From: a virus
Virus record (IMG/VR): IMGVR_UViG_3300048928_000557
Span: 1 to 26,082 of that record
Reading direction: 5' to 3' (one strand)
Length of the DNA stretch: 26,082 nt
This document shows, in pieces, positions 1 through 16,292 of the stretch; position 1 is the first letter of the stretch, and each line of letters starts with the position of its first letter. Under the pieces are notes generated by a model. The model did no database searches. It had not been told where the DNA came from and saw only the letters and a list, made by a program, of their open reading frames with translations. The position numbers were made by a program, and so were the translations under genes.

Positions 1-552
1 CTAAATCTAATATTTAGAAACTCGAAAAAAACTGGGAGCTCAGGCCTTAAAGCTTTATGTGAAAACCTCAGTGAAACGCTTCAAAGGCATCTTACCATAT
101 GTATTTTTGACCGAGACGAACGCCCTATAATTAACGAGATGAGCGGATCTCCAGGAAATTACAGGGATCACACTAATAACGTGTTTAGTCTAATAATACC
201 TATACCTGAGTTCAGGGATCCAAGTGATCTCATTTGCATTGAGCATCTGTACCAAGACGCTCAGATTTACACCTCCGACAATCAAGGGAGGAGATTGTAT
301 TCCAAGGATGAATTTGATTCTTTAGGTTGCCATAAAAACGACCCTCAATTATTTTGCAGAGTCAGCAAGCAATCATTGATATACGATGATCAAGTCATCA
401 ACTTGCATGAAAAAAGAAATGTTGCCCTGCCTAAAAATAAATTCGCCGATTATATTTTCAATGGAGCGCCACCGTTCAGTAATGTTGACTTCAGCGGGTT
501 TCGCGGTACTTTCACGCAAATCGTGGCAATTGCTGCTTCGTACAGCAGATGA
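1..552 (+). CDS. 3' end of an unrecognised protein (possible Toprim-like C-terminus)
   Basis: The frame is open from the first base of the window to a TGA at 550-552, so this is the last 183 codons of a longer gene whose start lies to the left. The first in-frame ATG at 139 is probably internal, because coding character continues upstream of it. The visible part has an acidic strand (ICIFDRDE, about residues 34-41) and later a hydrophobic strand followed by CIEHLY (about residues 77-82). That spacing of Asp-x-Asp and a later Glu is reminiscent of Toprim/OLD-type nuclease ends, but the match is weak and I do not assign a function. It is AT-rich compared with the phage genes and convergent with the next gene pair, so it belongs to the left cargo island. 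Confident as a coding region, unsure of family. Confidence 0.6.
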   Translation, partial: LNLIFRNSKKTGSSGLKALCENLSETLQRHLTICIFDRDERPIINEMSGSPGNYRDHTNNVFSLIIPIPEFRDPSDLICIEHLYQDAQIYTSDNQGRRLYSKDEFDSLGCHKNDPQLFCRVSKQSLIYDDQVINLHEKRNVALPKNKFADYIFNGAPPFSNVDFSGFRGTFTQIVAIAASYSR

Positions 553-637
553 GTTTGTATTCGAACGAACACGCGCAGTTGCTAAGCTGAATTTTTACAT
601 GTCGGTTTAGCTGCCGAAGTATATTACATATACCCCT

Positions 638-1432
638 TTAAGATTTTGGCGTCGATCGATTTGCTAAGCGAGTGGCCTGATCCTTCTGGACTGCATTTCC
701 AAACCAATTGGGAACATTCATTCCGTCCCGAGCATAAAGACGTTCTGGAACATCCTGCCAAAACTTTATAATTGCATCCGAAAAATCTTGAAGTTGCGAA
801 TCTGAAACCTTGACATATGTGTAATCAAGAAAATCAATGCCGACAAGCAATGGATCAATCACAGCGCATGGGTATACTAGATAATAGGGGTATTTTTTCT
901 TTAGCTCACTGAACGACCCTCCATTACCATGTTTGTACACATTAACTACGCAACGACATGCGTCAATTTGCTCAAAATATTGCCCACCTCGTATTGGCCA
1001 ACCATAGCTTTCCATCAAATCAACAATATCGTTGAAATTTACTTTCCAAATTTGAGTAACAGCAGTATCACTTCCATAAGCATGTCTCACTTCTTTTGCC
1101 ACCCAATCACGCAACTGCTTTTCCCACTCGTGAAACATTCCAGCGACGACACTAAGTCGAGTTTGGTCGCGCATATCACTTAAAAGTTGATGGTGTTCGA
1201 TACCAGCCTCGTAAGAAGCCTCATAGTAAGACCCGACGTCGTGTCGGTCAGGGTCGAAATTCTTGCTGTGCTTATCCAACCACTCATCAGCGGCGCGCTC
1301 AGACTCTGCCTCAATATCCTCGAACTGTGAAAGCAAGCGTCTACGTGCTTGCTCCAAGAAAAAAAGTTGTTTGTCGATCAGAGACTGCTTAAACGATTCC
1401 CACATAAAAAAAACAACCTGGCTGTCACTCAT
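638..1432 (-). CDS. Hypothetical protein, possibly HEPN-like; partner of the Ntn-hydrolase gene
   Basis: 264 residues from the ATG at 1432. An ATG seven codons further upstream (1453) is less likely because GGGGAGAA sits about 8 bases before 1432. The protein is largely helical and charged, and its second half carries R160, N164 and a KHG triplet at 167-169 (RCVVNVYKHG). An Arg followed by a conserved His-Gly at the end of a helix is typical of HEPN-domain proteins, where Arg and His form an RNase site. The spacing here (seven residues between R and H) is slightly longer than the usual four to six, so the call is tentative. It starts about 33 bases after the stop of the proteasome-like gene on the same strand, so the two are very likely co-transcribed and act together. 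No signal peptide or membrane segment is visible. Confidence 0.65.
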   Translation of the reverse strand: MSDSQVVFFMWESFKQSLIDKQLFFLEQARRRLLSQFEDIEAESERAADEWLDKHSKNFDPDRHDVGSYYEASYEAGIEHHQLLSDMRDQTRLSVVAGMFHEWEKQLRDWVAKEVRHAYGSDTAVTQIWKVNFNDIVDLMESYGWPIRGGQYFEQIDACRCVVNVYKHGNGGSFSELKKKYPYYLVYPCAVIDPLLVGIDFLDYTYVKVSDSQLQDFSDAIIKFWQDVPERLYARDGMNVPNWFGNAVQKDQATRLANRSTPKS

Positions 1433-1465
1433 CGCTCGTTCTCCCCAACCCATCGTGAAACGTGA

Positions 1466-2302
1466 TTATCGAGAATTTTCCGAGGCATTATGTGGCCTCG
1501 GCTGACGCTGGGCTTTTTCAAGTATGTTCATTGTTTTGCCACAGCATCGTTCAAACAAATTATTACGCCACTCGATATTATTTAAAAAAGGATTATCATT
1601 GATTTCAAGTCCATTCATAAATCGACTCCCGTTGTGTATGACCCCAAAGCTAATTGCTGCCCCCACTTTGTAAAGTCCAACTAGTTGAGGTGGGCCACCA
1701 CTATATGGATCCTTTCCGGACGCAAGCGCATCACAAAAAGCGCCAAATACGCTCCGACTTGTTCTTCCTCTTCCTTGAGGATCCTTGACTTTCGGTCCAG
1801 TCCACTCATCATATGAATGGTATAGTGAGGGTTTTCCGGATCCACTACTTGCAATAATCCCAGAGGTTTCTGGCAGCACACAATTTTCAACCATCACTCC
1901 CTTAGCACTTACTTTTATTATGGCAGCATGGAAGGTAGAACTCATTTTAGAGCCTACTCTTGAAGCATAGATGATTTCACACGCATCATGCTGAGAAATA
2001 GGCTGACTTCGATAACTATCGTTTATTTTGGTCCTAAGTTTCTCAAGCTTTACAGCAAAACTGTCATCAGCAACGAACAACAGACCGCTGTCGATAAGCT
2101 CAACTAATTGCCCTAAAATTTGAATTGGAAATGTGACTGATCCACAATACCCAAATATCTCAGGGCTAGTTTTTGATGCAAAAATTTTGCGACCAACGTT
2201 CCAGTATTTTCCACGGCCCCAAGAGATACGACTGTCGCTGGCAATATAGATTGAAGCAGGGCCGTGCGTATCGATACCTGTCCACGATAATAAAGTCGTC
2301 AA
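1466..2302 (-). CDS. HslV/proteasome beta-like Ntn-hydrolase
   Basis: 278 residues, starting at a TTG (2302) with a GAGGTG ribosome site 7 bases before it. The N-terminus reads M-TTLLSW; removal of Met would expose Thr as the N-terminal nucleophile, just as HslV matures to TTIVSV. Numbering from that Thr, an IASDSRISWG segment carries an Asp at 22, where HslV has its conserved Asp in GGDGQVSLG. NVGRKIF puts a Lys at 38, matching the catalytic Lys of HslV (ARKVRR). FGYCGS followed by an amphipathic helix (QILGQLVELI) matches the HslV GFAGG segment and helix. The protein is about 100 residues longer than HslV, and no HslU-type ATPase lies beside it. Family knowledge suggests a self-compartmentalising peptidase or a regulatory acyl-cleaving Ntn enzyme. 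The substrate is unknown. Its only neighbour in the operon is the HEPN-like gene downstream. Confidence 0.75.
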   Translation of the reverse strand: MTTLLSWTGIDTHGPASIYIASDSRISWGRGKYWNVGRKIFASKTSPEIFGYCGSVTFPIQILGQLVELIDSGLLFVADDSFAVKLEKLRTKINDSYRSQPISQHDACEIIYASRVGSKMSSTFHAAIIKVSAKGVMVENCVLPETSGIIASSGSGKPSLYHSYDEWTGPKVKDPQGRGRTSRSVFGAFCDALASGKDPYSGGPPQLVGLYKVGAAISFGVIHNGSRFMNGLEINDNPFLNNIEWRNNLFERCCGKTMNILEKAQRQPRPHNASENSR

Positions 2303-2765
2303 CCTTTACACCTCATCAAAAATTCAATATTCTAGCCAACATCTTGGTTCTGTTGGAATCAAAAACGAGCAACCCCGGGCCCTTCCACCAATAAAACACT
2401 ATGGGGGGGACAGGCAGAGAACATTCCCCCAGGTCACTGGGGGAGTCCCGGTCATCTGATACACCCATTATCTCCCCCTTTACTGAACACGTGACACGAT
2501 CCCGTGCCCTTAGCTTAAGGTATCTCCTCCTACCAGCGCACACCAACATATTGACTGGGTTCCTAGTCAGTAACGAGTTCCCGCGTCATTCGCTCTTGGC
2601 TAGGTGGCAGTGGTGCAGTACGCGTCATGCTCGCAAATTTCGTGCAAGGCTCGTCAATTGAGACTGGCCGGGATGGCCATTAGCCTTTTTTACCTTCCTC
2701 TTTCCGAACTGAGATATTCTCTTGTTCTGGCCATGCCGCGCAGGTCAGAGGGAAAGGGGTTCAAA
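2303..2765. promoter_or_regulatory. Divergent intergenic region between Ntn-hydrolase and DUF3800 genes
   Basis: About 460 bases without a convincing gene, from which two genes diverge, so it should hold both promoters. It contains a strong hairpin (CCCCCAG, loop GTCA, CTGGGGG at 2426-2443) and a smaller palindromic stretch (TGACT ... AGTCA at 2551-2568). Short open frames on both strands lack a ribosome site and resemble nothing I know. No clear -10/-35 pair was identified. Confidence 0.4.
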
Positions 2766-3941
2766 ATGGAAAAAATTTACGCCTTTGTTGACGAGTCTGG
2801 AAACCATGACTTGGACACATCCAAATCGGGCAGTTCAAACTTCTTCGTAGTTTGTTCTGTAATCGTCGCCGAGAAAGAATTGGAAGAATGCTACGCGGGA
2901 GCGGAAGCGATTCGAGTTCAGCACTTTCAAAAGGGTGAGATAAAATCGAGCAATATCAAGATCAAAGACTCGATACGGCGACTTCGCATTCTAGATCAAT
3001 TTTGTCAACTCCCTCTTAAACTATACATTACTGTCGTCGATAAAAGTCGTCTGTATCAGGATGGCGGCTTTCAACATAAAAAATCCTTCATTAAATATAT
3101 GAACGGTCTTTTATATCAAAGACTTTTTCTGAATTTCGCTCACTTACAGGTGCTCGCAGACGAGCATGGCAGTGCGGAATTTCAAGAAAGCTTAAAAAGC
3201 TACCTTATGAGCAGGTATGCAAACGATTTATTCGGGCAGTCTGTTTTTGAAACGAAATGCAGCAAAGACGACGTCATGATTCAAGTGGCTGATTTTTTCG
3301 CGGGCACGATTGCTCAGATTTATGAAGGTAAAGCCACTGCGGATATAGTCGCAAAATATAAAAACATGCTTAGCAGCCTCAGCCTGGGCATTCTTGAGTG
3401 GCCTCCCCAGTATCAGTCACTCTTACCGCCTTCCTTGAGTGCCGTTGACTACGCTGATTACGAGGTTCATCGACATGCTCTGAATCAAGCTGACAATTTC
3501 ATAGCAAAGGTCGGCCATGCAATGGATGAAGACGAACGCCTTCAACTGTGCATACTTAACTTCCTTCGTTTCAAGAGTGAATTTCTCGGAAACAAGGACT
3601 ACATTTCCACTAGCGAAATCGAAGTTCACCTACGAGCTAATGGATTTGGCGACCTGACGGAGCAAAAAATCGGGTCTAGCGGAGTGGCAAAGCTTCGAGA
3701 TCGAGATGTAATCATCGCAAGTGGTGCTAAAGGTTACAAAATTCCACAAACACGAGCAGACATTACTGATTTTCTAAGTCGGGCCTCTAGTCAAATTGTG
3801 CCGCTGCTGGATCGGATTAAGAAAGCTCGCGACGTTTATATGCTGGCAAGCCGAGGTGAATACGACATACTGAAAACGGCAGATCTTTCTGACCTTCAAA
3901 GACTGCTGGATTCGCTTGATCCTATAAAGAGCTCTAAGTGA
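2766..3941 (+). CDS. DUF3800 domain protein with C-terminal winged-helix-like extension
   Basis: 391 residues from the ATG at 2766, which is preceded by an AAAGGGG-type ribosome site. An in-frame ATG at 2604 would add 54 residues of unlikely composition. The N-terminus IYAFVDESGN is the hallmark of DUF3800, an RNase H-like-fold family; the second hallmark is IQVADFFAG at about residues 172-180, where the Asp completes the acidic site. DUF3800 proteins are commonly found in mobile and defence-associated loci, and their activity is poorly defined. The region after about residue 260 is not part of the core domain. It looks like a winged helix (STSEIEVHL ... a wing around SGAKGYKIP) followed by a helical tail. 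The gene stands alone on the plus strand between divergent and convergent neighbours. Confidence 0.8.
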   Translation: MEKIYAFVDESGNHDLDTSKSGSSNFFVVCSVIVAEKELEECYAGAEAIRVQHFQKGEIKSSNIKIKDSIRRLRILDQFCQLPLKLYITVVDKSRLYQDGGFQHKKSFIKYMNGLLYQRLFLNFAHLQVLADEHGSAEFQESLKSYLMSRYANDLFGQSVFETKCSKDDVMIQVADFFAGTIAQIYEGKATADIVAKYKNMLSSLSLGILEWPPQYQSLLPPSLSAVDYADYEVHRHALNQADNFIAKVGHAMDEDERLQLCILNFLRFKSEFLGNKDYISTSEIEVHLRANGFGDLTEQKIGSSGVAKLRDRDVIIASGAKGYKIPQTRADITDFLSRASSQIVPLLDRIKKARDVYMLASRGEYDILKTADLSDLQRLLDSLDPIKSSK

Positions 3942-4022
3942 ACGCGATTTTGGCGCGCTTCTTGACGATCGTATAAACCATGAAGACCGGCTAGCCTCAC
4001 ATCGACTCACGCTGAAGCAAAA

Positions 4023-4056
4023 AGCTGGACGTAAACGCTTTATAAAGCCCCCAGCT
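4023..4056. terminator. Possible bidirectional terminator between convergent genes
   Basis: AGCTGG (4023-4028) pairs with CCAGCT (4051-4056), and an inner perfect palindrome GCTTTATAAAGC lies at 4037-4048. The element sits between the convergent DUF3800 and HEPN/RES genes. There is no clear U tract, so this is a structural guess. Confidence 0.35.
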
Positions 4057-4082
4057 CCTATGCAAACTGGTGCCTCAAGGTT

Positions 4083-5345
4083 TCAATCCCAATCATCGTC
4101 GTATTCGGGCTCATCCGGAATCCATTCCAGATCTTTTCCAATGACTTTTGAATCAGTCGGTGTGAATTTAACGGCCTCAATCTTGTGTAGAACCATAGTT
4201 TCTGGAATAAATTCAATACCAGAGGTTTTGGTAATTAGGCGCTGAGCCGTTAACCGTACGGCAGGATGTTCAACTGTCACTACATGAGTAAAAAGGACGA
4301 TGTTCAACCCATCCTTTTTTTGCACTGATGAAAATATAACCCCGTCAATTCTCGGAGTGTGCTGTGTAGACAAATACTCCGCGATTACTTGTGTTGTTAA
4401 GTACTCTCGCTCCTGCTTTGGCAAAACCGGACTGCTTATTTTGCTGTGAAAAGTACGAAGAAACCTCCTTCGCTCTTGCTTAAGACGATATTCCGGGTCA
4501 AACATACTTATGGGAGCGTGCTCATAGGCCTCCTCGAGCACTTTGAAATCAAGAACTCGAACATCACGTGTCAATCGAAACTCTCCACTGATAACGCTCC
4601 CCCCAACTGGTGGCCTAAGCTCCGCTATACAGGTCTCCCTATCAAATGCTCCATAGAAAACGGGCACGCCCTCAGGATTCATTCGGCCTGCAGTAGCAAG
4701 ATCTTTAGGGGGCGCAGACATCTGAGCAGAGGGATCCTCCAGAATGCGCGTAAGATCACCGGGAGAGTCGCATAGACGAGCTCGGAACAGTTTTTCACCA
4801 TCACATTTTTTAATAGTGCGAACGGCATGCGAGAATGAGCCGGGCCGTCTATAGGTTTGAAAAGAATCGATATTTTTGAACAGCCATATGAGGAAATCTT
4901 TACCGCCTTGGTTAAAAAAACGACTTTTATGCATAATTCCGGTTCGAAATTCATTCCATTTACGTTCGGCTTGAACCGGTCTCAACTGCTTTACGGTAAA
5001 AAGGTCCTCATCGTTAAAGCGACTTTCTCCTCCGTTCTTCCGATCATAATACGAACAGGCAGTCAGCTCTGCGCAGACATCTTTTACAAGGCGGCAGTCC
5101 TCATCACATCCAAGAATATCAGCTACATGGTAATCAAGACCATCACCTCTATCATAGTTGTTGGAGGGGATTAAGAATTTTCTAATAAGCTCGGCAACTA
5201 AGTCAGCCAACCTGCTTATACCTATGACTTCGCATTTTCTATGACAGTAAGAGCATTCTCCCAATATCCTCTCATTTAGAATTAACTTTTCAAGGTGGGG
5301 ATCCTCAAGGCATCCATAGCAAACCAACGCTTCCCGATCATCCAT
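4083..5345 (-). CDS. HEPN/RES-domain protein with N-terminal zinc ribbon (probable toxin-like NAD-targeting enzyme)
   Basis: 420 residues from the ATG at 5345 (AGAGG ribosome site 8 bases upstream); a TTG at 5351 is a less likely start. Residues 9-34 contain two CxxC pairs (CYGC at 9-12 and CSYC at 31-34), a zinc ribbon. A helical HEPN-like N-terminal domain follows (about 45-165), then a RES domain from about residue 185. The RES signature is visible as FRARLCD (Arg about 188), AGRMNPEGVPVFYGA (Arg 221), CIAELRP (Glu 242) and FSSVQ (Ser about 339-340). RES toxins degrade NAD+ by phosphorolysis in the best studied systems. The architecture matches the known HEPN/RES N-terminal domain plus RES arrangement. 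No Xre-type antitoxin gene lies beside it, so it may be self-controlled or activated by an external signal rather than a classical toxin-antitoxin pair. Confidence 0.82.
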   Translation of the reverse strand: MDDREALVCYGCLEDPHLEKLILNERILGECSYCHRKCEVIGISRLADLVAELIRKFLIPSNNYDRGDGLDYHVADILGCDEDCRLVKDVCAELTACSYYDRKNGGESRFNDEDLFTVKQLRPVQAERKWNEFRTGIMHKSRFFNQGGKDFLIWLFKNIDSFQTYRRPGSFSHAVRTIKKCDGEKLFRARLCDSPGDLTRILEDPSAQMSAPPKDLATAGRMNPEGVPVFYGAFDRETCIAELRPPVGGSVISGEFRLTRDVRVLDFKVLEEAYEHAPISMFDPEYRLKQERRRFLRTFHSKISSPVLPKQEREYLTTQVIAEYLSTQHTPRIDGVIFSSVQKKDGLNIVLFTHVVTVEHPAVRLTAQRLITKTSGIEFIPETMVLHKIEAVKFTPTDSKVIGKDLEWIPDEPEYDDDWD

Positions 5346-5437
5346 ATACAACCTCTACGAGTGCTTTTGAGGGAATCGCCTCAGCCAGTGTGAATCATCG
5401 CACTGGCTCAATGCCACTCCAAGCGCTGTCTTCACAA

Positions 5438-11149: not shown

Positions 11150-12022
11150 TTATTTTTGGAATGGTGCTGGATCGATGATGTACTCGTCGATACCCCCATG
11201 GGAGCCTTGGTAGTGAATGGGGAGAGGTTTTTCGGATGGTATGATTCCAAATTCCAGCTGGCTAGCATCCATGCCAGGAATGAATGGCGAGAAAAAAAGT
11301 ACTCGGCTCGCGAACAGTGAAATGTCTCCATTTACGAGGGCTGGAATTTTTTTTCCAATTTGGGAGAATTTCTCTGGAGCACTGAACGCGATAGAGTACG
11401 AATTTATAAAATATCGCTCTCGGTAGAGATCCTCAGTATTGAATTTACTTTTGAGCGCCAATCCCCGCCGAAGAAAAATATCACTATCACTGATGCTATC
11501 ACTGTTAGGGTGACTTTGTTTCCACTCTTCAATATGGCGATAGATCATTTGATCGTTGACCATCAAAATCATTCCAATATCTTCAGCTGCAATCAACGGC
11601 TCTAAATCTTCCGATAGGTCTTCAGCCTGAACAAACTGGGTTTCATTACCGACCAACAAACGCAGATAGTCATATATTGAACGTTTAAGTCGTCTGCATC
11701 GACCATCTAGTCGCTTGCTTTTTCCGTCAAGCCACTCTTCAGCGAGAACTTCGCAAAACAGCTTAAAAACACCATCTGGAAGCTTGCTCTCCAGCTCATT
11801 GGCAAACTCTTTACGGAAGGCCTCCTTGTTTTCCGTGAAATATTTCAACATATCTATTTCTAGTTCGCAGCTGTCTACAAGCTTAAATATTTCATTGTTT
11901 TGGCTACGCTCAATTGAATCGCCCTCGACGTGTGCAGCAATAAGAAAGCGCTCCATAAATGCTGCAGACATTTGGTATTGCGGCAGCAAAGATGTATCGA
12001 GAGCTGTAGTTGGCGATTCCAT
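11150..12022 (-). CDS. Hypothetical protein, operon partner of the Abi_C gene
   Basis: 290 residues, ATG at 12022 with only a weak ribosome site. I do not recognise the family. The first 150 residues are helical and charged (LEIDMLKYFTENKEAFRKEF, then a basic cluster KSKRLDGRCRRLKRSIYDYLRLL). The last third looks globular and beta-rich (FINSYSIAFSAPEKFSQIGKKIPALVNGD, then LFASRVLFFSPFIPGMDASQLEFGIIP) and may be an enzymatic or sensing domain. No signal peptide or transmembrane segment is seen. It lies 74 bases downstream of the Abi_C gene on the same strand, so the pair is probably one two-gene system. Confidence 0.6.
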   Translation of the reverse strand: MESPTTALDTSLLPQYQMSAAFMERFLIAAHVEGDSIERSQNNEIFKLVDSCELEIDMLKYFTENKEAFRKEFANELESKLPDGVFKLFCEVLAEEWLDGKSKRLDGRCRRLKRSIYDYLRLLVGNETQFVQAEDLSEDLEPLIAAEDIGMILMVNDQMIYRHIEEWKQSHPNSDSISDSDIFLRRGLALKSKFNTEDLYRERYFINSYSIAFSAPEKFSQIGKKIPALVNGDISLFASRVLFFSPFIPGMDASQLEFGIIPSEKPLPIHYQGSHGGIDEYIIDPAPFQK

Positions 12023-12096
12023 AATATTCCAATATTAAATGTTTTATTTTTGAGTTTCGCTGCAAAAATTTTCGACAATCGATCAACACTGACGAG

Positions 12097-12837
12097 TTAT
12101 CTATTTGGCAGTTGGGCTTCCCATGTTCCGAGTAGATACAAAGAGAGAGAGCCTGCAAGATTCACCGCAAGCTCCGCATGGCGTGGCGCAGGTTTAACTC
12201 CAGCCTTACCAGTGCCATGTGAATCACTCAGACGATTTCGAAGTGCGCCAAGTCCTTCAACAACAGCTGTGCAGCCACCTAATATCTGCTTGAAAACCTG
12301 TTCCGTATGCTGTGAAGGTGCAAGGTTCAGCAACTCTGCTGTTTGACGATAGAGCTTATTCAGGTCAGGGCTGTCAGCATACTCAAGCCCAGCCGCTTCA
12401 AGGATGTGCTTGCAGACGGACTCTAAGAGGGTTCTAGCCATCGTAATAGCACCCTCGGGGTCAGTAGCTCGGCGCTCCAGTGATTTGGTCCAAGCTGCTC
12501 TTACATGCTCCGAATCGAACCGCTCAATAGCACCAGTGACGGCATGATCTGCCGGTGAAGCTCCACCTTTTTCGACGTAATCTAGCAACGGTCGGAACTC
12601 TTCCCAGATGTAGGTTCTGCGTTCGGCATATGTGCCGTACTTACCCTTTATGAACTGCCAAAACTGGCTGAGGCTCCTGCAAGTTCGTACAAAGCGCGGA
12701 ACCATTGTGGCGAGGGTTGAATCAGCCATGACCACTTGACGCAGCTTCAGGTAAGCAACGTCGTCTTCGTTACCTCCTGTAGCCTGCGATACCAGGATTC
12801 CTTGCAGCGCTTCTGCTTCTTCGGAGAGAGGGTGCAT
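12097..12837 (-). CDS. Abortive-infection C-terminal (Abi_C, HEPN-type) protein
   Basis: 246 residues. The C-terminal half matches the Abi_C domain: EGAITMARTLLESVCKHILEAAG, then DLNKLYRQTAELLNL, then QILGGCTAVVEGLGALRNRLSDSHG. R200, N201 and H207 form an R-x6-H pair of the HEPN type, so it is a plausible ribonuclease that attacks host or phage RNA when triggered. The N-terminal 100 residues are helical and may be the sensing part. The domain is known from abortive-infection proteins such as AbiJ. The AT-rich downstream gene is its likely partner. The start is supported by ORF position; only a weak AGG lies upstream. Confidence 0.8.
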   Translation of the reverse strand: MHPLSEEAEALQGILVSQATGGNEDDVAYLKLRQVVMADSTLATMVPRFVRTCRSLSQFWQFIKGKYGTYAERRTYIWEEFRPLLDYVEKGGASPADHAVTGAIERFDSEHVRAAWTKSLERRATDPEGAITMARTLLESVCKHILEAAGLEYADSPDLNKLYRQTAELLNLAPSQHTEQVFKQILGGCTAVVEGLGALRNRLSDSHGTGKAGVKPAPRHAELAVNLAGSLSLYLLGTWEAQLPNR

Positions 12838-13209
12838 TTCTGACCTACTGAGTGAGTTCGTGACCAGAGGACGGGCGTGTTCAACCAGATGCTAGCAGCA
12901 TAGCGGCGAACCACCTCGTCGGGGGACTAGCCTTAGAAATCGAGATCGAGCGACCTCAATTTATCTATTCATCGATTACCAAACGACGACTTGAAGCACC
13001 GGATTTGCTAGTGCACTGCTTCATACAGCCCGAAGAGGGCGGCGTTTCAAGTCCTCATTCGTATAGCCGCATCCATAGTCATGTCAGATAGCTGCCGGCA
13101 AGTGAGGCTGCATTTACTTGCTTGGCTCATCGTGTCAATGTGCCATACCTCAGCAGTGGCATCTAGGCTGCACGGGCTCGGAAGATTCATTAACACAAGG
13201 AGCATGTTT
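12838..13209. promoter_or_regulatory. Divergent intergenic region (Abi_C and MBL-fold genes)
   Basis: About 370 bases with no supported gene. An in-frame ATG for the MBL protein at 13081 lacks a ribosome site, and its 43 extra residues look non-coding. A small hairpin (ATGCT, loop AGC, AGCAT) lies near 12890. Promoters for both divergent genes should be here; none was clearly read. Confidence 0.35.
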
Positions 13210-14514
13210 TTGAAAAAAACAGCGTTGCACGCGTCTATTCAACAGCTACCTGTCGGTCAAGGCGGCTTCCTGATTGGTCAAATTAAGGATGACCATTCAC
13301 GCGTGTTCACCTACGCATTTGATTGCGGTTCAATCAACCGGGAACACTTTGAGCAAGGTTTGTCTTTTTGTACACCAGGTAAGATCGACATACTGTTCGT
13401 TTCTCACCTGGACGCTGACCATATCAATGGAATCGATGCGCTAGCTGCACATATGCAGATTGATACGGTGGTTCTTCCCTGCTTGGACGCGTTGCACATG
13501 ACCATGATCGCTTGCGAGGCGATTGGAGAGGCAGGGATTCGAATGTCGGTACAGTCATTCCTAGCTGATTCCTCAGGTTGGCTAGCAGATCGAGGCGTCA
13601 AGCAGATCCTTCATGTACAGCGTGCTGACAGTGCAGCCGAGGCACAACCTTTCAATCTCGATTCTGAGCAGTCAAACGAAGGCGATGTAGTGTCGGACGG
13701 TGAAGAGGCTGACGCAGATCGCCCTTACACAGTCCGCTCTCAAGGTGTTAGTGAAACCAAAACTATACGATCAGGGACGGTTGTAGTACGAACGCTCAGC
13801 GAACACTCGTCAATTTCAGTTGGTGCAGGTGGAAAAACGGCATCCTGGTTGCTGGTTCCCTATGTTCACCCTTTCCCAAGTGAGGATGTAGCGTTATTTC
13901 GTAAGGCGGTAGGGAGTTTGTTCCCTTCCACGTTCGCCAATCGGACGGCCGCCTCAAAACCATTCGCGAGAAAATTGCTGGAGCTGCTCCGCGATGAAGA
14001 TAGCCGTGAGACGCTGAAATCCTGCTATTTCATTCTTTCCAGTGATAACAACAAACCCTCATTGAGTCTGTATTCCGGGCCTCATCCACGGGTTACCGGA
14101 ACAAGGCATATTATTAGATCCGAAGAGCGCCACTGGCCTTTTTATTCCTCTCCACATCTGAGGCTCGCACCTACAAGAGGACCGCACGCAAACAAAGGGG
14201 GGGCTTGGCTTTGTACTGGGGATGCGAACCTAAAGAGGGTTGGCACGAGAAAACCATGGCTCCAGAGATTCCAGAACTTGCTTGATGAGGTAGAGGTTTT
14301 TATTTTGCCGCACCACGGCAGCAATCGTAGTATTCATAACGATGTTATTAATCGCATGAAAGGTTCTATGATGGTTGCTTGTGCCGCAACCGGACGTGAT
14401 AAGCACCCGCATCACCTTTTACTCGGCAGACTGCAGATGTATGACCAATGCGTTTGGCAGGTTTCGGAAGATATTGAAAGCGGTTACGCACTCAATGTAA
14501 CTCTCACCAATTAA
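13210..14514 (+). CDS. Stand-alone metallo-beta-lactamase-fold hydrolase (ComEC C-domain-like)
   Basis: 434 residues if it starts at the TTG at 13210. AAGGAG at 13197-13202 is 7 bases before that TTG but only one base before the ATG at 13204, so TTG is preferred although either is possible. The MBL metal-binding motif is H66-x-D68-x-D70-H71 (SHLDADHING). Further signatures are an LCTGDAN segment (metal-bridging Asp) and LPHHGSNRS at about residue 366, both as in the MBL domain of ComEC/Rec2. An acidic linker (SNEGDVVSDGEEADADR, about residues 155-175) looks disordered. No membrane segments are present, so this is a soluble relative, probably a nuclease or phosphodiesterase. It sits alone between a divergent Abi_C gene and a 330-base gap. 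Confidence 0.8.
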   Translation: MKKTALHASIQQLPVGQGGFLIGQIKDDHSRVFTYAFDCGSINREHFEQGLSFCTPGKIDILFVSHLDADHINGIDALAAHMQIDTVVLPCLDALHMTMIACEAIGEAGIRMSVQSFLADSSGWLADRGVKQILHVQRADSAAEAQPFNLDSEQSNEGDVVSDGEEADADRPYTVRSQGVSETKTIRSGTVVVRTLSEHSSISVGAGGKTASWLLVPYVHPFPSEDVALFRKAVGSLFPSTFANRTAASKPFARKLLELLRDEDSRETLKSCYFILSSDNNKPSLSLYSGPHPRVTGTRHIIRSEERHWPFYSSPHLRLAPTRGPHANKGGAWLCTGDANLKRVGTRKPWLQRFQNLLDEVEVFILPHHGSNRSIHNDVINRMKGSMMVACAATGRDKHPHHLLLGRLQMYDQCVWQVSEDIESGYALNVTLTN

Positions 14515-14843
14515 AGTGTTTAGCGTTGTTAGAAAATGTTCGCTATGGGGCCCTCGGCAGATTTTCTGGGGATTACTTGCCTCATAGCCTGGTGCAAGTC
14601 CAATACGTATCTCACACGCTCCTCCAGACAACCTATCAAGGGTCAGAACATGGTAGGGCTATAGACATTGAGCAGAGCATCAGTAGCTTTTTTTTGAAAG
14701 CCTTTAACACAAGGGGCCTACATCTTTTCGGCAAAATCAGGCCCACTAGCTAGCCTGAGCCGGGAGGTGCAGGATGAACCCCACCCATCAAACACTCGTC
14801 AAAAGACGGGTGCCAAGACAAACCCATAAGGAGCTTTAATACC
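14515..14843. other. Intergenic stretch before the DUF3892 gene
   Basis: About 330 bases with no convincing gene; a 75-codon plus-strand frame (14526-14753) lacks a ribosome site and any recognisable pattern. An imperfect hairpin (CAC-T-CGTC, loop AAAA, GACG-G-GTG, about 14787-14806) lies just before the DUF3892 ribosome site and may affect its expression. An AAGGAG ribosome site is at 14828-14833. Confidence 0.35.
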
Positions 14844-15146
14844 GTGTCGAATTTTGATTACTACGTATCAGCCACTGACTACAACAGCGACGGTACGCAT
14901 ATCGCTAAATTGCGAGTGCACGAATTCGGAGCTGCCGGAAAACTCAAGGATCCCGTGGAGATGACTCGCCCTCAGGTGATTGAGTTGATCAACAAGAAAA
15001 AGACATTTAGTACGATGACAAAAGGCTCAGATGGAAATTGGAAAGCGGGAGCTAAGCTTGAAGTCATTTCGGTTACAACCGATTACCTTAAGACAAAAAA
15101 AGATGCGTCCACAAGAGACAACCTTGAGAATTTACCTTCGATCTAA
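14844..15146 (+). CDS. DUF3892 family small protein
   Basis: 100 residues from a GTG, with AAGGAG 10 bases upstream. The C-terminal KLEVISVTTDYLKTKKDAS and TRDNLENLP stretch is the DUF3892 signature (a final YLxTxxDxxxxDNLxxLP), and the centre shows the usual strand-helix layout (PQVIELINKKKTFSTM). The family is widespread in small bacterial proteins of unknown function that often sit in accessory regions. It is a single-gene unit, closed by a strong inverted repeat about 40 bases later. Confidence 0.8.
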   Translation: MSNFDYYVSATDYNSDGTHIAKLRVHEFGAAGKLKDPVEMTRPQVIELINKKKTFSTMTKGSDGNWKAGAKLEVISVTTDYLKTKKDASTRDNLENLPSI

Positions 15147-15183
15147 GCTGTCTATTTTTTTGGTTAACTAATTGAGTGAGCCT

Positions 15184-15219
15184 CGTGTTAAGCGGCAGTC
15201 TTTGCTGCCGCTTAACACG
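15184..15219. terminator. Perfect 15-bp inverted repeat, likely terminator
   Basis: CGTGTTAAGCGGCAG (15184-15198), loop TCTTTG, CTGCCGCTTAACACG (15205-15219). The stem is perfect and lies downstream of the DUF3892 stop and downstream of the convergent membrane-protein gene. There is no U tract on the plus strand, so termination may be bidirectional or the repeat may have another role. Confidence 0.65.
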
Positions 15220-15380
15220 ACAAAGGCGGCTTAGGTTAGCGGCTACTCAAACTCCTACAGCTCAAAAATAGACTGTTGAGTAGTACACCTTCTGACAGAC
15301 CAGCCTCGTAATAATGCGCTCCCTTCATCACAGAAGCTTCAGATCCGCTTGCAGTCCGACCAAGCGTGAGAGGTATGGCG

Positions 15381-16292
15381 TCACTCACCAGTCTTTTTCT
15401 CCACAATGATCTGGTCATTCGGGATATCCAACTGGCGTTGAAGTTCGCCATCCTTGAAAGCAATAACAGTCGTATTACCAAACCCTTTGAATTGGACAGT
15501 GACACCGGCATAAGCCTTGTAGCCTTCTGGTGCCTTGGCTTCTTTGACTACCAGAGCATCAGGCAACAGGGCGTTATAAGGCGCTTTAACATACACGGCG
15601 GCTTTCTCAATGCGAACCTGAGCCATGCGCATGGCGCCATCCATGAGTAGACCTGAAACACCACCCATCACTAATGGCAGCAGCATGACGACAGTGATGC
15701 TTACCAGATAAGCGCTTTTCTTCTTTCCGGCCTCACCCGAGCTCTGTAGCTCGTCCTTCTCGGGAGTGACGATCACAGAATTCAGTAGCCGTTCATGACG
15801 ACGGTACTGGGATCCCGCTGACTTTGCTATGGAATAGAAAACGTAGAGCGCTATCGAAAGCACCGGCAAATTCCAGTAGGCCACGTTGTCATGTTGTCCA
15901 AATGCCCAGATCAGCACCACAGCCACCAGCGCGAAAGGAATGGACCCCCAATGGAACCGGGCCATTTCATACGCCATTTCTTTTTTCGGGTTAACTTTTT
16001 TCTGTATACGTGCAAATACGAAGTTAAAAATGGGTCGCGTCACAATCGACAAGCAAATGCCCAGCGAAACTAGGCAACCGACGAACATGGCATAAACAAC
16101 ACCAAAACAACTCGCGGCCAGCAGGAACAGCAGCCCGTCGCCCAAGGTCAGACCCTGGGGGAAATGACCAACCCGTAATGCATAGATGATCACGCAGGCA
16201 CTGCCTAAGGCGATACTGAATTTGAGTGCAGCACCGGTTAGCTTCAAAAGACTTTCAGCGGTGGACTCAAGGGAGGAAATCACTGTTTTCAT
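15381..16292 (-). CDS. Multi-pass inner-membrane protein, function unknown
   Basis: 303 residues, ATG at 16292. Five hydrophobic segments are visible at about residues 20-40, 52-84, 117-132, 141-157 and 194-216. Between the fourth and fifth is a basic cytoplasmic-type loop (QYRRHERLL). The last 80 residues form a soluble, probably periplasmic, beta-rich domain (VYVKAPYNALLPDALVVKE and TVQFKGFGNTTVIAFKDGE) ending in KKTGE. I do not recognise the family. It is convergent with the DUF3892 gene and shares the intervening inverted repeat. Codon use is closer to Pseudomonas core genes than that of the HEPN-type cargo. Confidence 0.7.
   Translation of the reverse strand: MKTVISSLESTAESLLKLTGAALKFSIALGSACVIIYALRVGHFPQGLTLGDGLLFLLAASCFGVVYAMFVGCLVSLGICLSIVTRPIFNFVFARIQKKVNPKKEMAYEMARFHWGSIPFALVAVVLIWAFGQHDNVAYWNLPVLSIALYVFYSIAKSAGSQYRRHERLLNSVIVTPEKDELQSSGEAGKKKSAYLVSITVVMLLPLVMGGVSGLLMDGAMRMAQVRIEKAAVYVKAPYNALLPDALVVKEAKAPEGYKAYAGVTVQFKGFGNTTVIAFKDGELQRQLDIPNDQIIVEKKTGE

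Follow-up and report, generated by a model that had tools for sequence, protein, structure and literature searches.

The window, meaning the whole 26,082-nucleotide stretch of DNA that was analysed, is a 26-kb IMG/VR virus record for which the Pseudomonas phage Komp_PAO1_1 is the nearest relative of the structural genes (65% of the stretch at 71% identity), and the carrier of the gene considered here is a prophage. Two blocks of defence-like cargo are held by this prophage, one (1–5351) containing a retron-type reverse transcriptase (RT), a DUF3800 gene (PDC-M04A) and a RES gene with HEPN_RES, and the other (11150–16292) containing Abi_C/AbiJ and a metallo-beta-lactamase-fold protein. The relevant features are as follows:

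1–552, plus strand: C-terminal 183 aa of a retron-type RT, convergent with the gene pair below both here and in a second locus (L016); a neighbour, any functional link being putative
638–1432, minus strand: downstream gene, a 264 aa helical protein of phrog_19541 that is no conserved partner of the Ntn gene; the longest open reading frame reaches 1453
926–946, minus strand: VNVYKHG motif, HEPN-like N-x3-H-G with Val replacing Arg, from family alignments
1466–2302, minus strand: gene for a predicted proteasome-like Ntn hydrolase, 278 aa, TTG start; AlphaFold2 model, fold matches and ~45 relatives
1694–1711, minus strand: D198-P-Y-S-G-G203 (Asp166/Ser169 motif), from alignments and register with 20S beta
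1835–1843, minus strand: G154-S155-G156 (Ser129 loop), from alignments and register with 20S beta
2141–2143, minus strand: Gly54 codon (equivalent to oxyanion Gly47), Gly in 45/46
2186–2188, minus strand: Lys39 codon (equivalent to Lys33), Lys in 46/46
2234–2236, minus strand: Asp23 codon (equivalent to Asp17), Asp in 45/46
2297–2299, minus strand: Thr2 codon (equivalent to proteasome Thr1), 44 Thr and 2 Ser in 46; model residue 2 lies on Thr1
2309–2314, minus strand: Shine-Dalgarno-like GAGGTG, six bases ahead of the TTG, read from the sequence

Both minus-strand open reading frames given in a preliminary description of this DNA (1466–2302, with a TTG start and 278 aa, and 638–1453) were confirmed. 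The TTG start is supported by the GAGGTG ahead of it and by the Ntn homologues, which have a start codon at the equivalent position followed by Thr. The better start of the downstream gene is the ATG at 1432, because it is preceded by GGGGAG and fits the starts of homologues, and with that start the 33-base gap previously noted between the two genes holds. Comparison with one other Pseudomonas locus gave dN/dS values of ~0.07 for the Ntn gene, with dS near saturation, and ~0.15 for the downstream gene, which suggests purifying selection on the two of them. The RT end at 1–552 has a Toprim-like C-terminal region; the complete copy in L016, a P. weihenstephanensis island (L016:8747–10453, minus strand, 569 aa), matches PADLOC RT-TIR_XII (E = 8.9e-178) and RT-Toprim_I-C, and the end common to both loci is 94.5% identical, a much higher value than the 74% recorded for the adjoining Ntn gene.

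An AlphaFold2 model of the Ntn protein, generated with the family alignment as input, was obtained with a pLDDT of 93.7 and a pTM of 0.91. Foldseek and VIA-align placed this model on 20S proteasome beta subunits (Z = 18.5, 3.3 Å over 204 residues with 2fhg), with Anbu as a further fold match (Z = 17.3), and residue 2 superposed on proteasome Thr1, so that the Ntn sandwich fold proposed from the letters alone is borne out as one of the proteasome beta type. The N-terminal M-T-T, the Asp, the Lys and the GYCGS turn to which the preliminary description drew attention are all present, the Asp being residue 23 counted with Met and 22 counted from Thr, and the Lys residue 39 or 38 on the same reckonings. 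Conservation of the Thr and the Lys likewise withstood the alignment of 46 relatives, in which the nucleophile position following Met is Thr in 44 and Ser in two, and the Lys33 equivalent is Lys throughout. The Asp17 equivalent is Asp in 45 (Glu in one) and the Gly47 equivalent Gly in 45, counts to be read with the fact that the Asp position lies inside one of the search patterns and the Gly just past the end of another; by way of comparison, Thr, Lys, GSG and DxxSGG lay outside the selection criteria used to find the relatives. The family alignments also show a G(S/T)G and a D-x-x-S/T-G-G-type motif, within which the Ser169 equivalent varies. In an hhalign comparison with an actinobacterial 20S beta subunit (L072), Asp17, Lys33, GSG and DxxSGG were all in register, the score itself being weak, and fold match and register together suggest that Thr, Asp and Lys would meet in space. 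Predicted fold and conservation thus agree on the proteasome/HslV-type Ntn hydrolase with exposed N-terminal Thr and intact catalytic set that had been proposed, and as regards enzyme class alone the assignment as a proteasome-like Ntn hydrolase is made with high confidence.

Profile searches placed the protein less securely. No credible model match was found in Pfam, NCBIfam or PADLOC: Pfam PF00227 (Proteasome subunit) was absent for 36/36 members at E values up to 1, and PADLOC 2.0.0 gave no match at E values up to 1. PHROGs returned a faint HslV match for the window protein (E = 0.026), and the phage HslV profile phrog_1040 was matched by 11 of the 36 members (best E = 6.1e-5). Profile kinship to HslV or Anbu was sought with hhalign against three-sequence alignments and rejected on the lack of any significant score, the motifs nonetheless being in register with those of HslV. 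The profile check proposed at the outset, against HslV, Anbu and proteasome, yielded the weak HslV match of phrog_1040, but neither a Pfam match nor a significant hhalign score. The family profile likewise found nothing when run against PDB sequences and, given these insignificant scores, kinship rests on the fold, the motifs and the weak phrog_1040 match.

Among known relatives, the 20S proteasome beta subunits (PF00227; M. tuberculosis 2fhg, Rhodococcus 1q5q) share with the Ntn protein the fold, the N-terminal Thr, Asp17/Lys33/Gly47 and the GSG and DxxSGG motifs in register, whereas the Ntn protein has only 14–15% identity to them, no Pfam match, no propeptide and no adjoining alpha subunit gene. 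HslV (ClpQ) of HslUV resembles it in the M-T start that exposes Thr, in the spacing of D and K and in the weak phrog_1040 match, but the Ntn protein is ~100 residues longer and its gene has no adjoining HslU. As previously stated, the window shows no HslU-like gene, either in the open reading frame translations or in the profile matches of the scanned proteins, and no unfoldase gene recurs beside the Ntn genes of 44 loci. Anbu is similar in fold (Z = 17.3) and in having neither a propeptide nor a known unfoldase; unlike Anbu, the Ntn model has no long C-terminal helix H5, and no helix of four or more residues past residue 195. The L016 host has a separate HslVU elsewhere in its genome, Anbu is separately encoded in certain host genomes, and in total HslV, Anbu or 20S genes were found elsewhere in six of eight host genomes, so the Ntn protein is no replacement for those enzymes.

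Relatives were sought by tblastn on plasmids and by one scan of 84,980 species genomes, which together yielded ~45 from at least six bacterial phyla (Pseudomonadota, Bacteroidota, Actinomycetota, Cyanobacteriota, Chloroflexota and Acidobacteriota, plus a Campylobacterota plasmid). A set of 50,697 phage records contained no relative, even at an E value of 10, and viral contigs contained a single one with an integrase-like open reading frame near it. Distribution is patchy, with the gene present in 4 of 399 Pseudomonas genomes, and in the family tree the Pseudomonas members are split over at least three separate groups, a pattern expected of mobile genes. A very divergent Pseudomonas relative was detected by HMM at L114:6386–7237 (minus strand), where an internal GTG puts Met-Thr at the expected place and suggests a wider superfamily. 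A P. aeruginosa plasmid copy (L006:6001–6570) is missing its N-terminal part and has an IS1182 transposase gene adjacent.

The family may already have been recorded: Fuchs, Alva and Lupas (2021; PMC8665760) described 22 orphan, uncharacterised proteasome-like families, for which they reported no genomic context hinting at function. It is quite conceivable, if not the reading that we would choose, that the Ntn family is one of those 22 and that the novelty lies in its genomic context alone: Fuchs et al. searched nr iteratively in 2020, the phylum ranges of several of the 22 are comparable to its own (PMC8665760), and the Ntn family should have had members enough to form a cluster. The 22 families resemble it in being proteasome-like, in keeping the catalytic set, in having no AAA+ partner and, in some cases, in being spread by phages. 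However, the hallmark insertions (S3/S4, long pore loop, long H3/H4, C-terminal domain) are not obvious in the Ntn model, and the Ntn family, in contrast to the absence of informative context reported for the 22, is found in defence-rich islands.

For 122 proteins encoded next to Ntn genes, matches at E ≤ 1e-8 covered 193 PADLOC models, as against 10 models, mostly generic helicase, ATPase or regulator, for 90 control proteins from genomes of the same set, a contrast drawn with a small, unmatched control and inflated because one RT alone matches dozens of PADLOC models. The breadth of systems near the Ntn genes is independent of that inflation, and includes HerA, SIR2, type III restriction-modification, DRT3, retron RT and the candidates PDC-S31 and PDC-S06; a neighbourhood of defence genes is, even so, no proof of function. 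Seven of the neighbours are phage-type integrases. Another fixed partner of the Ntn gene was looked for by comparing, all against all, the four genes on either side of it in 44 loci, and was rejected, no neighbour family recurring in more than three of these loci. On a Paracoccus plasmid (L005:3835–6825) 39 bases separate the end of a HerA-type ATPase gene from a divergent Ntn relative (23% identity), and the two possibly form an operon. Elsewhere the defence-type genes lying 31–170 bases from Ntn genes differ, with HEPN_Toprim_N upstream in L004:4677–6774, RiboL-PSP-HEPN downstream in L022:7001–8536 and DUF3800 downstream in L024:7001–8909; the neighbours that the Ntn gene uses may be interchangeable.

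In established proteasome chemistry, once Met has been removed, the hydroxyl of the exposed Thr attacks the substrate, helped by Lys/Asp and Ser/Asp. By analogy, a methionine aminopeptidase would take off Met1 of the Ntn protein, a step that would suffice to expose Thr because the protein has no propeptide. The Thr hydroxyl would then attack a peptide bond aided by the Lys33/Asp17 equivalents, the Ser/Thr of the GSG motif (129) and Asp166/Ser169, with the Gly47 equivalent forming the oxyanion hole. The enzyme would operate with no dedicated AAA+ unfoldase and, with neither unfoldase nor propeptide, its substrate should be accessible without unfolding, or its control should lie in assembly or a trigger. 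It should accordingly cleave (or, connectase-like, ligate) a particular accessible protein, or be activated on assembly or by a phage trigger, and its most likely role would be that of an anti-phage effector or regulator, which is favoured because of the defence-rich context. The reading that we favour on balance, as somewhat the better bet, is that of a stand-alone proteasome-like N-terminal-Thr hydrolase carried as cargo by mobile elements and defence islands, and likely to be anti-phage. The gene itself, its predicted fold, the conserved catalytic set, the lack of a fixed partner and the defence-rich neighbourhood are what the analysis shows; how the protein is processed and assembled, that it is a peptidase, what triggers it, what it targets and that it serves defence are inferred from these.

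Counting against that reading, fold alone is no proof of peptidase activity, since connectase, a proteasome relative, is a ligase (PMC8665760). The single Glu at the Asp17 position, the two Ser nucleophiles, the variable Ser169 equivalent and the lack of any relative in the 50,697 phage records weigh against it as well. A proteasome-fold ligase or modifier of this kind, or a housekeeping enzyme of the mobile element acting, for example, on a phage or plasmid protein substrate, would have no role in immunity, and is the foremost rival as regards function. That this fold is capable of ligation is known from connectase (PMC8665760), and several Ntn copies are located beside integrases or in prophages. 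Nevertheless, this alternative is judged rather unlikely: the Ntn model has no two-helix S3/S4 insertion and keeps both of the helix pairs of ring-forming members, and defence genes are more frequent around the Ntn genes than in the control.

The remaining proposal concerned the downstream protein, initially taken for a possible HEPN RNase toxin. This is a member of phrog_19541 (PHROGs, E = 1.8e-60), which is carried by many enterobacterial plasmids, by viral contigs and by 15 of the 399 Pseudomonas genomes. Its model is a helical bundle (pLDDT 88.7), and it resembles HEPN proteins in being all-helical and in its N-x3-H-G motif. The R...KHG motif to which the preliminary description pointed is present as R167...K174-H175-G176, but R167 varies across the family, the core motif of which is VNVYKHGxG. 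HEPN identity is not supported: none of 13 aligned family members matched any Pfam HEPN family at E values up to 10; the conserved Arg of R-x4-6-H is missing, Val taking its place (V170-N171-x3-H175); and the best structural row, a Csm6 region at Z = 6.6, is a weak match within the helical-bundle background. An HEPN RNase was therefore dropped and a role as an RNase toxin is not supported, a degenerate, non-catalytic HEPN being possible. The only match to PADLOC 2.0.0 spanned 29 residues of ThsB (E = 0.029), and was taken as chance. The phrog_19541 family, with its NVYKHG motif, is common on enterobacterial plasmids, 135 records of which gave a match, and in viral contigs, and its loci L007–L014, L054–L071 and L116–L121 have no Ntn gene near.

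The two genes adjoin in only two of ~45 Ntn loci, the window and L016, which have the same gene order, protein identities of 72–76% and, in both, convergence of the pair with the retron-type RT. The downstream gene is absent from all other Ntn loci, several of which are short contigs, and the loci of the downstream-gene family, 26 on plasmids or viral contigs and six further ones in Pseudomonas (32 in total), all lack a nearby Ntn gene. Across the 399 Pseudomonas genomes, four contain the Ntn gene, 15 the downstream gene and one both. A conserved Ntn and downstream pair was rejected on this survey of loci and genomes, which leaves the earlier suggestion of a two-part defence design unsupported. 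The linkage is a local cassette, probably assembled within a defence island: the L016 element carries integrase-like, large primase-like and SIR2-like genes (labels from reading the sequences rather than from gene-by-gene profile searches), DUF2971/PDC-S31, the Ntn gene, its neighbour and the retron RT. A system in which control passes from the Ntn peptidase to an HEPN-type RNase encoded 33 bases downstream, or the other way round, would be consistent with the gene order and spacing that the window shares with L016, with purifying selection on both genes and with the different HEPN genes close to Ntn genes in L004 and L022, but is most improbable in view of the few loci and the one genome in which the two genes meet, the 32 downstream-gene loci devoid of Ntn and a downstream protein with no HEPN profile match, no conserved Arg and a weak fold match.

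What is new is that a family which has kept its active site and lacks a partner lies in defence islands; the superfamily itself is already known, and a literature search found no paper tying HslV or proteasome-like proteins to phage defence or defence islands. We tentatively propose, as a possibility short of an expectation, that the gene constitutes a single-gene anti-phage system with a proteasome-family protease effector, working with no ATP-driven unfoldase and carried into at least six bacterial phyla by islands, plasmids and prophages. Bacterial proteasome relatives lacking unfoldases are numerous, and mostly have no known role; for this family, a full active site, location in defence-rich islands and the absence of a Pfam or PADLOC match together suggest a testable function, namely immunity by a proteasome-fold protease.
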